Assembly: GCA_025210265.1 (NCBI GenBank) | Contig: JAOASD010000004.1 | Span: forward strand, 310,001-374,000 | Reading direction: 5' to 3' | Source of the DNA: Pelagimonas sp. | GTDB lineage: Bacteria; Pseudomonadota; Alphaproteobacteria; Rhodobacterales; Rhodobacteraceae | DNA: 64,000 nt | In this document: positions 24,483 to 39,485 of the stretch, piece by piece | Layout: the number at the start of each line of letters is the position of its first letter | Position numbering within the stretch: the first letter of the stretch is position 1 | Translations under genes and position numbers: made by a program | Notes under the pieces: generated by a model | What the model was told of the DNA's origin: nothing | The model's input: only the letters and a program-made list of their open reading frames with translations | The model's database searches: none

Positions 24483-25073
24483 ATGGACCAGAGTGACCCA
24501 CGAGAACAGGACAAGCGGCGCGCCATCATGCAGGCGGCTTTTGGTGTGTTCGCACAATACGGTTTCAAACGGGTGTCCATGGCCGATATCGCCAAGCAAG
24601 CCGGCATGTCGCGCCCGGCGCTGTACCAGCATTTCGCCGGAAAAGAAGACATCGCCCGGTCTATGGTCGCAGGCTATTACGACGATGCTTTGGCGGGGAT
24701 GATCGCGCAGCTGGCCCAACCCGGCCCCCCGGCCGAGGTGCTCAGCCGCGCGTTTCAGGCCAAAGCTGGGGACAGCATTGCCTTTCTGCTCAGCAGTCCG
24801 CATGGCATGGAACTGGTCGAATTGGGCAGCACCTTTGCGTCTGATCTGGTGGCAGAAGGCAGCACCCGGCTAGAGGCCGCTCTGTCCGAATGGCTGCTGC
24901 GCGAGGCAGAGGCAGGCCGGATTTCCCTGCCGGGCCCGGCCGAGGATCTGGCCGCAACCATGCTGGCCGCATTGGACGGGCTGAAAGCCAAAGGCCGCCT
25001 GCCCAGATATGCGCAATATGTGGTGCAGCGCGATCTGCTGGCACAGGCATTTGGCGCGGCGCTCAGCCGTTAG
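24483..25073 (+). CDS. TetR/AcrR family transcriptional regulator
   Basis: 196 residues. The N-terminal DNA-binding domain is [46 protein letters not shown], with the recognition helix SRPALYQHF. The C-terminal ligand domain is unspecific. Divergent from the molybdenum hydroxylase genes, it probably controls them. The stop TAG lies at the very end of a MITE-like repeat (25070-25211), so the element may have set the gene's 3' end. Confidence 0.88.
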
Positions 25074-25211
25074 GCCCAGGATCCATTCCTTCGCCAGACG
25101 TTGTTCCAGGCCAGATGTCTGACTGCGGGAACATACTTATACTTCAAGGGTATATGGCGCATTCAAACCGCTCTATGCTCAGCGCCGTAAACTCGTCGTC
25201 CCTGACCCTAG
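25070..25211. mobile_element. MITE-like element, short copy
   Basis: Begins TTAGGCCCAGGATCCATT and ends TCGTCCCTGACCCTAG. The left part (CTTCGCCAGACGTTGTTCCAG, then TTCAAGGGTATATGGCGC) and the right part (ATGCTCAGCGCCGTAAAC) align with the left and right ends of the longer copy at 38403-38671. This copy lacks about 125 bp of the interior and has more diverged ends. No coding capacity. Confidence 0.65.
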
Positions 25212-32555: not shown

Positions 32556-32656
32556 ATATTCACCCTAAACGGGTCAATCAGTCTGGAATATCGTGTCAAA
32601 GGCGGGTTTTGTTGCCGCCCCTGACAGGCGCTCAATTCCGGGAATTGCGCCTGAGC

Positions 32657-33868
32657 CTAGATCAACTCTGTCTTGATCCGGGCCCCTTGTTCCAAGGTGC
32701 GATGCACAGGACATTTATCAGCGATCTCCAGCAGGCGCTGACGCTGCGTTGCATCCAAAGGACCACATAGCGTGATTTGCCGGGTGAACTGATCAATCCG
32801 CGTGGCATTGCCCGTGGCGGCATCCTGCGCGTGCAGCTTGTCATGGCTGACATCGACCAGCACATGCTCTAGCGGCCAGCCCTTGCGTCGTGCATACATA
32901 CGGATCGTCATCGAGGTACAGGCCCCCAGACCCGCCGCCAGAAACCCATAGGGCGACATGCCGCGATTGGTGCCGCCATAGGCCAGCGGTTCATCCGCAA
33001 GCGCGTGGTGATGCGGCCCGTTCTGCACATCCTGCAGGAACCCGGCAGGATCGGCCTCGGACACCCGTGTGATGCCTTCGGGCGCACCGGGCGGCGGGGC
33101 CGGAGGCGTCAGCGTCAGATAGCGCCCGGCCCAGGCGGTGATCACCTCGGCGGCATATTCGGCGTCCTCGGGACGGGTGATCAGATGGTCAGCATTGTCC
33201 AGCGTGACAAAACTTTTGGGATGTTTGGCAGCGGTGAAGATCCGCGTGGCGTTGTCGATGGACACAATGTCATCCAGCGGCGCGTGCATCACCAGCAGCG
33301 CCCGTTTCAGCCCGCCAATATCATCGGTCAGATCCGTGTCCAGCACATCGCGGACAAAATCCCGGCCAATGGTGATCGGACGCCCGCCCAGATTGACCTC
33401 TGCATGGCCCTTTTCTTCGATCTCATCCAGCGATCCGGCAAAGTTATGGGTCACATGGCCGGGATCAAACGGCGCGCCCAATGTCGCCACGGCGCGCACC
33501 GTGGGGATCTGTCCTGCGGCCTTCAGCACCGCCGCGCCGCCCAGCGAATGCCCGATCAACAGATCCGGCGCCATGCCGCGCGCGTTCAGATGTTCAGCCG
33601 CAGCCAGCAGATCCTGCACATTCGACGCAAAGCTGGTCGCGCCAAATTCGCCCTCGGAATGGCCCAGCCCGGTGAAATCAAACCGCAGCACCGCGATCCC
33701 CATCGCCGCCAGCCGGGCCGAGATCCGCCGCGCGGCAGGAATGTCCTTTGAGCAGGAAAAGCAATGGGCAAACAGCGCGGTGGCCAGATGCGGCCCCTCG
33801 GGCAGATCCAGCCGGGCGGAAAGGTCGTGACCGGCATGGCCGGCAAAGCTGAGGCGTTCTGTGGGCAT
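32657..33868 (-). CDS. Bifunctional alpha/beta hydrolase - OsmC family protein
   Basis: 403-residue fusion. Residues 1-250 are an alpha/beta hydrolase with the oxyanion HCFSCSKD, nucleophile elbow LIGHSLGGAA (Ser near 110), and acid and histidine in HAPLDDIVS and NADHLI. Residues 270-403 are OsmC-like: YGFLAAGLGACTSMTIRMYARRKGW supplies one redox Cys and ADKCPVHRTLEQG the other. OsmC domains reduce organic hydroperoxides. This fusion is known in proteobacteria. Start at 33868; upstream codons are not family-like. Its TAG stop lies in CTAGGCTCAG, which matches the MITE terminus. Confidence 0.88.
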   Translation of the reverse strand: MPTERLSFAGHAGHDLSARLDLPEGPHLATALFAHCFSCSKDIPAARRISARLAAMGIAVLRFDFTGLGHSEGEFGATSFASNVQDLLAAAEHLNARGMAPDLLIGHSLGGAAVLKAAGQIPTVRAVATLGAPFDPGHVTHNFAGSLDEIEEKGHAEVNLGGRPITIGRDFVRDVLDTDLTDDIGGLKRALLVMHAPLDDIVSIDNATRIFTAAKHPKSFVTLDNADHLITRPEDAEYAAEVITAWAGRYLTLTPPAPPPGAPEGITRVSEADPAGFLQDVQNGPHHHALADEPLAYGGTNRGMSPYGFLAAGLGACTSMTIRMYARRKGWPLEHVLVDVSHDKLHAQDAATGNATRIDQFTRQITLCGPLDATQRQRLLEIADKCPVHRTLEQGARIKTELI

Positions 33869-33935
33869 GGGGGCAGGCTTTGTGTTAAGGGCATTGTAAC
33901 TTGTGGTCTGTCCTAAAGCTGAGGGCAGAGTAGGC

Positions 33936-34856
33936 ATGGCGCAAGGCACAAGCGCCCTGCGTCACGGGAAGGTGAGCGAATTGGTGATTTTGGTGAGGCT
34001 TGTTGCAATCGCTGCGCTGTTGGCCCTAGGGGGCGGCGCGTTGGGTGCGTTGCACCCGGCGGGGGATTCCCTGGCGGTGTTTCGGGTGCCGTTGACGGGG
34101 CTTTTGCTGGTGACGGGATGGGCGCTGCGCCCGCGTGTTCTGGCATGGGGGGCGATGCTGTTGGCGCTTGTGGGGTTGGCGTGGCATGGGGGGCAGCTGT
34201 ATCGCCCGGACCGGATCCCGGATCATGCCCCGGATCTGACGCTGTATCAGCAAAACCTGTTGATGGATCGGCAGTCGTCAATCGAGTTTCTATCTGCAAT
34301 TTCAGACGCTTCTGCGGATGTCCTCACCTTGCAAGAGGTCTCTGCCGCAAACCTCTCGATATTGGAAACCTTGCGGGGGGATTACCCTCATCAGATCCAC
34401 TGCCCGCTGGAGGACTGGCTGGGCGAAGCGGTGCTGTCGCGCCATCCCTTTGTCCCAGGCAGCGCCTTTTGTTCGCGTCGGGACGGGCTGGCCGGGGCGC
34501 AGATCATGATGCCGGATGGTCCTGTCTGGGTGGTGTCGCTGCATATCAGCTGGCCCTGGCCTCATGGTCAGGCGGCGCAGCTGGATGAGATCCTGCCAGA
34601 GCTGAAACATATCTCGGGTCCGGTGGTCGTATCTGGGGATTTCAACGCCGTTTCATGGTCTTACGCGGTGAAGCGCGTTGGCGATGCTGTGTCCGCCAAG
34701 CGGATCGGGCGCCGGTTCGCCAGTTTCAATCTGCCCATAGGCGGGATGCCAATCGGGATCGACCACGTTCTGAGCAACGGTTTTGGCGTGGCAAAACAGC
34801 AGGCAAAACTTGGGTCAGACCACCATGGCGCATATGCTGAAATTTGGCTTTATTGA
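33936..34856 (+). CDS. Membrane-anchored endonuclease/exonuclease/phosphatase family protein
   Basis: 306 residues. Three N-terminal helices (VRLVAIAALLALGGGALGAL, RVPLTGLLLVTGWAL, RVLAWGAMLLALVGLAW) anchor the protein; the EEP domain follows with LTLYQQNLL, VLTLQEVSA (metal-binding Glu), VVVSGDFNAVSWS, IDHVLSN and the C-terminal GSDHHGAYAEIW. The active-site residues are intact, and the domain faces the periplasm by topology. The reaction is phosphodiester hydrolysis of an unknown substrate. ATG at 33936 was preferred to the upstream in-frame start. Confidence 0.85.
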   Translation: MAQGTSALRHGKVSELVILVRLVAIAALLALGGGALGALHPAGDSLAVFRVPLTGLLLVTGWALRPRVLAWGAMLLALVGLAWHGGQLYRPDRIPDHAPDLTLYQQNLLMDRQSSIEFLSAISDASADVLTLQEVSAANLSILETLRGDYPHQIHCPLEDWLGEAVLSRHPFVPGSAFCSRRDGLAGAQIMMPDGPVWVVSLHISWPWPHGQAAQLDEILPELKHISGPVVVSGDFNAVSWSYAVKRVGDAVSAKRIGRRFASFNLPIGGMPIGIDHVLSNGFGVAKQQAKLGSDHHGAYAEIWLY

Positions 34857-37524: not shown

Positions 37525-38289
37525 TTACGTCAGGGCACTGGGGAGGATCAACCGCACCATTGAGGGCAGCGCGCTGTGGTTGGGCAGGGACACAAACAGC
37601 ATCGTCACCACCAGCGCCTGAGCGGACAGGCGGAAATCCATGCCTCGACGCAGGGCGATGACCCATAGCATTGCCGCCACGGGCAGGGCGACAAAGGCCA
37701 GCACGGCCGACATCACCCAGCCTGCCGCGCTGAGGCGCAGTTCATCTGCAGGGCGGTCCTGCAGGCGGGCGCGCAGCCGGGCCACGGCAGAAGGAGAGGC
37801 CAGAGGTAAGGGGGCTTCATCGGCATAGAGCGTCGACATACGCTGGTCATAGGCGGAAAACGGATCTTCGGCGCTGCTGACGGGGACCAGCGGGATACTG
37901 GCGCCCAGATGGGTGTGAAAGGCTGTGGCATCAACCAGATAGCTGGGGTCGCCCCATTCAATAATATCCGCATGTGACCAGTGCAGAGCCAGCGTGACAG
38001 CGCGGCGCAGCACGGCGCAGGCGCGCCGGAAATCCGGGGTCTGTCCGGGGCGGGCCAGAACACGGATCAGGATGCGGGGCCCGAACGGGCTGTTTTCCTC
38101 TGCCCGGATCCGCAGAACCAGATGGGCCGAGCGCACTTCGCCGCGTCGGTGATCGACCTGAACGCCCCCCTTGCCGGGCGTGTCCAGTTGAGTGCAGGCC
38201 TGCGCGACCTCTTGTAGATAGGGGGCCGGATCCATTTGGCGGATGTCTGGCAGGATCAGTCCTGCATAGGTGATGTCCTGGGCCTGCAT
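37525..38289 (-). CDS. Membrane protein of unknown function, tandem paralog 2
   Basis: 254 residues with the same layout as its neighbour: YAGLILPDIRQMDPAPYLQE at the start, SPFGPRILIRVLARP, ALHWSHADIIEWGDPSYLVDA, VSSAEDPFSAYDQRMS and a C-terminal two-helix region DELRLSAAGWVMSAVLAFVALPVAAMLWVIALRRGMDFRLSAQAL. The strong conservation of the SSAEDPF and RLSAAGW motifs suggests a recent duplication with both copies under selection. No enzymatic motif is visible. It lies just downstream of a MITE-like element. Confidence 0.7.
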   Translation of the reverse strand: MQAQDITYAGLILPDIRQMDPAPYLQEVAQACTQLDTPGKGGVQVDHRRGEVRSAHLVLRIRAEENSPFGPRILIRVLARPGQTPDFRRACAVLRRAVTLALHWSHADIIEWGDPSYLVDATAFHTHLGASIPLVPVSSAEDPFSAYDQRMSTLYADEAPLPLASPSAVARLRARLQDRPADELRLSAAGWVMSAVLAFVALPVAAMLWVIALRRGMDFRLSAQALVVTMLFVSLPNHSALPSMVRLILPSALT

Positions 38290-38402: not shown

Positions 38403-38671
38403 CTAGGCTCAGGACCCATTGATTTGCAACGCTCAGTTCGCCAGATTTTGTTCCAGGCCAGGCATATGGCCGCAGGAATAGTTTTCTATTTCAAGGGCAT
38501 ATAACGCAGGCTGGGGCAAAATCTGGCGAACCCGCAGGGCATGGAGAAATGCACGCTCTCAGCGGCGTGGATCCCTCGCAAAGGCAACCAGCCTTTCCTG
38601 CGAAATCCAAACCACTGATACCGCGTATTTTTCCATGCTGAGTGCCGCAAATTAATGGGTCCTGAGCCTAG
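38403..38671. mobile_element. MITE-like element, long copy with 34-bp terminal inverted repeats
   Basis: Left end CTAGGCTCAGGACCCATTGA... (38403-38436) is the near-complement of the right end (38638-38671), with about 29 of 34 positions matching. A second inner pair, TTCGCCAGATTTTG (38437-38450) and CAAAATCTGGCGAA (38518-38531), lies near the left third. 269 bp, no ORF, CTAG at both ends. A shortened relative is at 25070-25211. It lies in the 395-bp gap between mltB and the paralog pair. Confidence 0.75.
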
Positions 38672-38684
38672 ATTGTTTCCAGGT

Positions 38685-39485
38685 TTATTTGTCGATCCGT
38701 ATCGCTGTGGCCGCGATGGCCTGTTGATAGACCGTGGCGGCGTTCCATTCATTCAGTACGCGGAAATTGGGCTGGCCGGGTTCATAGCCTTTGCTGGGCT
38801 TCCAGCCCTTTTTGCGCAGGAAATTTGCGGTCGAGGCCAGCGCATCCGCTTCGTTATAGAAATCGACCCGCCCGTCGCCATTGCCATCCACGCCATATTG
38901 CATCGCATTGCCGGGCAGGAACTGCGTGTGGCCCAGCTCTCCGTGAAACGCGCCGCGCTGGGTCGGGGACAGCATTCCGCGATCCACCATTTTCAGCGCC
39001 GCAATCGCATGAGGTTTAAAGAAATCGGACCGGCGGCAATCATAGGTCACGGTCAGGATCGAGTTGACCACAGGTTCCGACCCCATGGTGCGGCCAAACC
39101 CGGTTTCCATCCCATGGATCGACACAAGGATGCCCGCGGGCACACCATAGCGTTTTTCGATCGCATCAAAGAAACCCTGATTGCGGGTCACGCGCTTGCC
39201 TGCGGTGGCGGCAAAACTGTTCAGTGACCCCAGCCGGATTTTGACAAAGCGGTCAAAGCTGTATTTCACGCCTTTCTGGTTGCGATCTGCATGGATGGTT
39301 TTGGTGGAATAGCGCGCAGCCATCAGCGCCTTGATCCCGCGCTGGCCAACGCCTGCGCGCTTGGCTTCGGCGGCAAATTCGGCTTTCCAGGGTTCAAACC
39401 CGGATGAGGTGTTGCCGCAGCTGGCGGCAAGGGCAGGGGCGGCGGTCAGAATGGACAGGCCAAGGGCAAGGGCAATGCGGCGCAT
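38685..39485 (-). CDS. mltB: Lytic murein transglycosylase (MltB family)
   Basis: 266 residues with a signal peptide (MRRIALALGLSILTAAPALA). The catalytic Glu is E127 in ILVSIHGMETGFGRTMG; TRNQGFFDAIEKRYGVP, FHGELGHTQFLPGNAMQYGVDGNGDGRVDFYNEADALASTANFLRKKGW match the SLT_2/MltB domain. It cleaves peptidoglycan glycosidic bonds to give 1,6-anhydro-muropeptides in the periplasm. It lies 108 bp downstream of the first array RTX gene in the same direction. Confidence 0.9.
   Translation of the reverse strand: MRRIALALGLSILTAAPALAASCGNTSSGFEPWKAEFAAEAKRAGVGQRGIKALMAARYSTKTIHADRNQKGVKYSFDRFVKIRLGSLNSFAATAGKRVTRNQGFFDAIEKRYGVPAGILVSIHGMETGFGRTMGSEPVVNSILTVTYDCRRSDFFKPHAIAALKMVDRGMLSPTQRGAFHGELGHTQFLPGNAMQYGVDGNGDGRVDFYNEADALASTANFLRKKGWKPSKGYEPGQPNFRVLNEWNAATVYQQAIAATAIRIDK

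Follow-up and report, generated by a model that had tools for sequence, protein, structure and literature searches.

Positions 38404-38670 (forward strand) of the window, the 64,000-nucleotide stretch of Pelagimonas sp. DNA that was analysed, hold a complete two-armed element of 267 bp with TA at both ends (CTAG target). The element is well supported as a non-autonomous IS5-family transposon. Its interior is not decayed IS sequence. The explanation that we find best overall, and hold with somewhat more belief than doubt, is a transposon moved in trans whose interior fold would act mainly as RNA. MITEs are usually treated as decayed ISs with an interior that drifts freely. In this family it is the interior that is conserved, one fold being held by paired changes from alpha- to gammaproteobacteria, and the ends that are swapped to match different transposases.

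A sequence-only reading had described the long element correctly in outline and placed it at 38403-38671; the ends are best set one base further in, since C38403 and G38671 form the outside of the CTAG target. Its terminal inverted repeats (TIRs) of about 34 bp, at 38404-38437 (+) and 38637-38670 (-), agree at 88% over 34 bp, and 24 nt at the start pair with 24 nt at the end. The inverted ends of that earlier description are real, as are both inner inverted pairs. As RNA the element folds at -155.9 kcal/mol (z = -14.6; none of 200 shuffles equals it) and as DNA at -83.2 kcal/mol (z = -12.2). The fold is Y-shaped: the TIR stem leads into arms A and B, with a small hairpin between them at the centre.

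Two half-units make up this layout. Half-unit 1 (38404-38533, +) comprises a TIR and the arm A hairpin, and scores 120.6 bits with structure model R2 and 133.2 bits with model R1. Half-unit 2 (38537-38670, -), inverted relative to the first, comprises a TIR and the arm B hairpin, and scores 56.5 bits with R1, a model containing no arm B sequence. The conserved tip of arm A, GCAGGAATAG-TTTT-CTATTTCAAG, lies at 38472-38495 (+), and its inverted counterpart in arm B, with a loop of the TGGTT type, at 38577-38602 (-). Between the arms, at 38531-38539, stands the mini-hairpin CCCGCAGGG, in place of which many relatives have CCCTTCGGG or CCCGAAGGG. No classical terminator or promoter was found. It lies between a hypothetical gene (37525-38289, -) and an SLT_2 lytic transglycosylase gene (38685-39485, -) whose stop is about 14 bp outside the element; the element itself supplies no stop codon.

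Among 395 Rhodobacteraceae genomes, elements about 70% identical to this one occur in many genera at a near-constant length of 264-270 bp; Shimia marina and Phaeobacter are among the carriers. Covariation was assessed in an alignment of 32 diverse members (63% identical on average and 42% at the least), whose consensus fold has 86 pairs, 73 of them with two-sided changes. The covariation score was 0.554 against 0.180 in shuffles, with 0 of 500 as high, and structures slid along the alignment reached at most 0.11. The stems vary, and the internal loops and the tip (GC-A/C-GGAA-nnn-TGGTT-nnn-TTTCAAG) hold their position. Model R1, built from left halves only, also picks out most right halves, each inverted with respect to the first match and directly adjoining it; the element is therefore an inverted pair, tail to tail, of one unit of about 132 nt (TIR plus long hairpin). 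In 214 kb scanned, R1 matches were confined to elements or element ends, and IS loci match the structure model at their ends only.

The half-unit reaches well beyond this family. With R1 it was found in eight further families among the alphaproteobacterial genomes sampled, and with the iterated model, R2, in 38 of 299 Pseudomonadota genomes. Within the Rhodobacteraceae, R2 has matches in 61 of the 395 genomes, with E below about 1e-8 in about 34; the weaker ones include IS ends, matched through the TIR part (G005, 36 bits), and are not counted as elements. Gammaproteobacterial half-units lie on plasmids of Azotobacter chroococcum, Halomonas sp. PA16-9, and Pseudomonas aeruginosa PA83. The same architecture occurs with unrelated TIRs, namely TAGGGTCTGTTGACGTTT (268-269 bp), TAGTGTCCCGTCTGGC (267 bp), TAGGGGGCGTTCTCAA (270 bp), and TATACCCAAGTAACCC (263 bp). 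The TAGGGTCTGTTGACGTTT TIR differs by one mismatch from that of a complete 860-bp IS5-family IS on an Aeromonas caviae plasmid, the transposase of which is 30% identical to the alphaproteobacterial one. Single-arm versions with still other TIRs (TAGAGCATAATCC... and TAGAGCGTATTTCATTTAA...) are present in several copies (L264 and L271) in a 1.5-Mb alphaproteobacterial genome (G611).

Shared tip, layout, and length suggest that the units in elements with unrelated TIRs have a common descent. We tentatively entertain a broader proposal, in which the half-unit would be a module that functions as RNA whatever the specificity of the transposase, and would have spread through the phylum Pseudomonadota on one non-autonomous transposon after another, each with different ends, mostly as an inverted pair so that transcripts from either side meet a working orientation. 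A search of Rfam gave no covariance-model match to the element, and no description of a two-armed structured family of this kind was found in Rfam or in the literature searched, in which few subscription journals were covered. The TIR strings led only to unrelated papers in that literature, the exact tip was absent from the viral contigs scanned, and a search of E. coli genomes with one gammaproteobacterial member as query found no member.

Whether the fold acts as RNA or as DNA can be approached through its strand preference. In the inward direction, starting at the TIR, a half-unit folds more stably than its complement in 36 of 40 cases for arm A and 37 of 40 for arm B. Removal of the conserved tip, which carries a fixed G.T pair, left this preference in place, at 34:6 for arm A, 37:3 for arm B, and 23:9 for the new loci, and at 14:1, 15:2, and 20:8 in non-redundant sets. 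The fixed G.T pair had partly inflated the mismatch counts per half-unit; with the tip removed, and within helices restricted to Watson-Crick pairs, G.T mismatches exceeded A.C mismatches by 42:15 in arm B and 16:3 at the new loci. Arm A with the tip removed had no such bias (25:27), and the TIR stem gave 28:29. A mutational bias of one strand cannot account for both arms, which lie on opposite DNA strands. A nearly strand-symmetric G.T:A.C count over the whole element, which had suggested a DNA role, was rejected, that count mixing one arm in sense with one in antisense. These strand comparisons, whose counts come from related sequences and so are not independent, point with moderate confidence to a constraint at the RNA level that would act on the inward-read strand, that is, on read-in transcripts from neighbouring genes.

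A rather less likely account keeps the same transposon and has its arms act as DNA, through cruciform extrusion, IHF bending, or a transpososome architecture that would favour transposition, or has them kept palindromic by template switching between the arms, with RNA irrelevant. It draws on the very stable DNA fold, the near-constant total length, the lack of a G.T bias in the arm A stems, and the retention of an IHF consensus in arm B. The last of these, WATCARNNNNTTR (TATCAGTGGTTTG at 38608-38620, -), is a perfect match within the arm B internal loop, with N positions that vary while the match is kept, and is found at the same place in 32 of 46 members; an IHF-like site is also present in Paracoccus ISs of the IS427 group (PMC3281130). 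The motif, though truly conserved in arm B, is missing from many members and is not counted as a core feature of the family. Neither cruciforms nor homogenisation of the arms predicts that both arms share a strand preference despite lying on opposite DNA strands, and template switching would erase the fixed internal loops and mismatches.

If the fold acts mainly as RNA, the inversion of the units would let a transcript from either neighbour meet a correctly oriented hairpin first, at or just past the gene stop. The likeliest effect would be a stable 3' structure, perhaps processed by RNase III, that protects the message upstream of it. Insertion would thereby be tolerable in either orientation, and copies with a good fold would persist.

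At 25 of the 69 elements examined for their position at genes, the stop of a neighbouring gene is a TAG made up of the target TA plus the G that opens the TIR; for comparison, 9 of 75 non-coding YTAR sites in the window are stop codons, on rough gene calls, which makes stop codons about threefold over-represented at elements. An element that lands in a TAA or TAG stop, whichever way round it lies, restores a TAG on either side, a simple account of harmless insertion at gene ends. Overall, element ends are turned towards gene 3' ends and towards 5' starts in similar numbers (64:54).

The shortened second copy reported earlier is present at 25071-25210 (+, 140 bp). It matches the left half of the long element at 75% over 72 bp, its right end has diverged, and R2 scores it at 23.9 bits; homology to the left half together with the diverged right end marks it as an internal-deletion derivative. 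Its left TAG is the stop of a TetR-type gene (24483-25073); the earlier reading spoke of two cases in which an end supplies a gene stop. The third partial match of that reading fares less well. The sequence, CTGAGCCTAG, is exact and does contain the stop of the alpha/beta hydrolase-OsmC fusion gene (32657-33949, -), at 32651-32660 (-), one base from where it had been placed. This lone 10-bp TIR-like match has neither a partner end nor a match to the structure model, so it is probably a chance likeness outside the element family. A short inverted repeat of the AGGCGC...GCGCCT type lies by the stop of the same gene.

A relationship to the CcrM-associated intergenic repeats (CIR) of Caulobacter and Brucella, or to other two-palindrome alphaproteobacterial repeats (RIME), is improbable. 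CIR RNAs likewise consist of two long hairpin arms and a linker, and likewise occur in alphaproteobacteria (PMC2229807). They are defined by the GANTC motif and lack an end-to-end TIR stem (PMC2229807), and the element is the opposite in both respects: GANTC (CcrM) sites number 0.22 per element in 46 elements and 1.03 in dinucleotide shuffles, a depletion of about fivefold. The distinction rests on the published CIR descriptions and on this count. Two further candidates were set aside. The intrastrand triplex motifs (PMC4666352) differ from the element, and REPIN/BIME are RAYT-mobilised, short REP units without TIRs or TA duplication, as opposed to the TIRs and TA flanks present here.

Mobility is documented first by the copies in the same genome. 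BLAST with the element gave 41 matches that resolve into 13 full copies, and the structure-model search added two older, diverged full copies (C1:8460 and C36:69027). The total is 15 full and about three partial copies, the one at 25071-25210 among the latter; the two in the window, which would have told against a transposon family had they been the only ones, are two of about 18. Full copies range from 266 to 352 bp, the larger ones carrying extra palindromic blocks. Such blocks are added in the spacer, in arm A, or in arm B of the variants that measure 303-352 bp (L006-L014), a pattern resembling the gain or loss of whole hairpin modules.

About 45 of 48 elements sit in a YTAR target whose TA is duplicated: a pyrimidine (C or T) precedes the TA in 46, and a purine (G or A) follows it in 45. 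Empty sites are found in two relatives (L237 and L238) whose SLT_2 genes are 77-80% identical and are followed by the same downstream gene with no element in between. The gap is about 110 bp in L237 and 395 bp in the window, 269 bp of the latter being the element plus the duplicated TA.

The exact TIR string occurs throughout the Alphaproteobacteria, often about 150 bp or less from contig ends, as expected of a multicopy IS. At 15 fetched loci, complete ISs of 823-858 bp carry these TIRs and transposase frames, the transposase matching NF033580 transpos_IS5_3, DUF4096, and DDE_Tnp_1. Two relatives, G218 (four 835-bp copies) and G286, have full ISs of 835-923 bp together with the miniature element. 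In the genome studied here, a truncated, stop-containing IS remnant with the TIR TAGGGTCAGGACTCATT lies at C36:147276, and no intact transposase was found in this draft assembly. The partner IS, with NF033580/DUF4096, a size of about 830-860 bp, a 2-bp TA duplication, and often two overlapping frames, can be placed in the IS427 group, a name given here on size, duplication, and frame layout rather than on an ISfinder comparison. The element itself has the marks of a MITE, namely TIRs without a transposase gene, dispersed copies with TA duplication and empty sites, and a TIR match to an autonomous element. TIR match, YTAR target, dispersal, and empty sites together suggest that an IS5-family transposase acting in trans would move it. 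The earlier proposal of a non-autonomous transposon family is upheld in each of these respects (several copies, a TA target, a transposase with matching TIRs, and relatives lacking the element).

That the element might be an ordinary internal-deletion derivative of the IS, its fold a by-product of the short palindromic form, is very unlikely. The TIRs are indeed those of the IS, and a true derivative with the same ends exists: the 237-bp element at L077:2301-2537 is a plain internal deletion that keeps the transposase 3' end, and offers a useful contrast to the structured family. The arms, by comparison, are unrelated to the IS interior, and the idea is contradicted by covariation that keeps the fold across genera and by the recurrence of the arms with unrelated TIRs. 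A vertically inherited regulatory element or sRNA gene, to which the conserved structure might appeal, can hardly be credited, contradicted as it is by dispersed copies at different loci, TA flanks, and empty sites, the sequence not being conserved in place across species.

The suggestion of a mobile structured RNA/DNA unit, also made in the sequence-only reading, stands as regards structure, on covariation and strand-specific folding. That paired changes preserve the two-hairpin fold in relatives across alpha- and gammaproteobacteria suggests that the fold itself does something. If so, a selected device of structured RNA (or DNA) can travel inside bacterial miniature transposons, and the question of why MITEs fold becomes directly testable.

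Several known systems share part of this picture. ISs of the IS427 group in the IS5 family (IS1248 and ISPaes1 of Paracoccus; PMC3281130) have the 2-bp target duplication also seen here, and the 823-858-bp relatives of this type share the TIRs of the element and carry a DUF4096 and DDE transposase (NF033580), while the element has no transposase and an unrelated interior. The NEMIS/Correia elements of Neisseria are, like it, TA-ended and miniature and possess an IHF site, and their RNA stem-loops in neighbouring mRNAs have been proposed to undergo RNase III processing (PMC2229807); they are shorter (107/155 bp) and described in one genus (PMC2229807), and are likened here by description, not by sequence. 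Among bacterial MITEs linked to ISs are MITEPsy1 of P. syringae (100 bp; PMC3189936) and MITEPye1 of P. yeei (159 bp; PMC11578231), which are geneless, have IS-like TIRs, and occur in several copies, as here. MITEPsy1 (listed as IS5?) further resembles the element in targeting CTAG or YTAA (PMC3189936). Both have been described in one or few species, in contrast to the present family, whose covarying two-arm fold persists from alpha- to gammaproteobacteria and in elements with unrelated TIRs.
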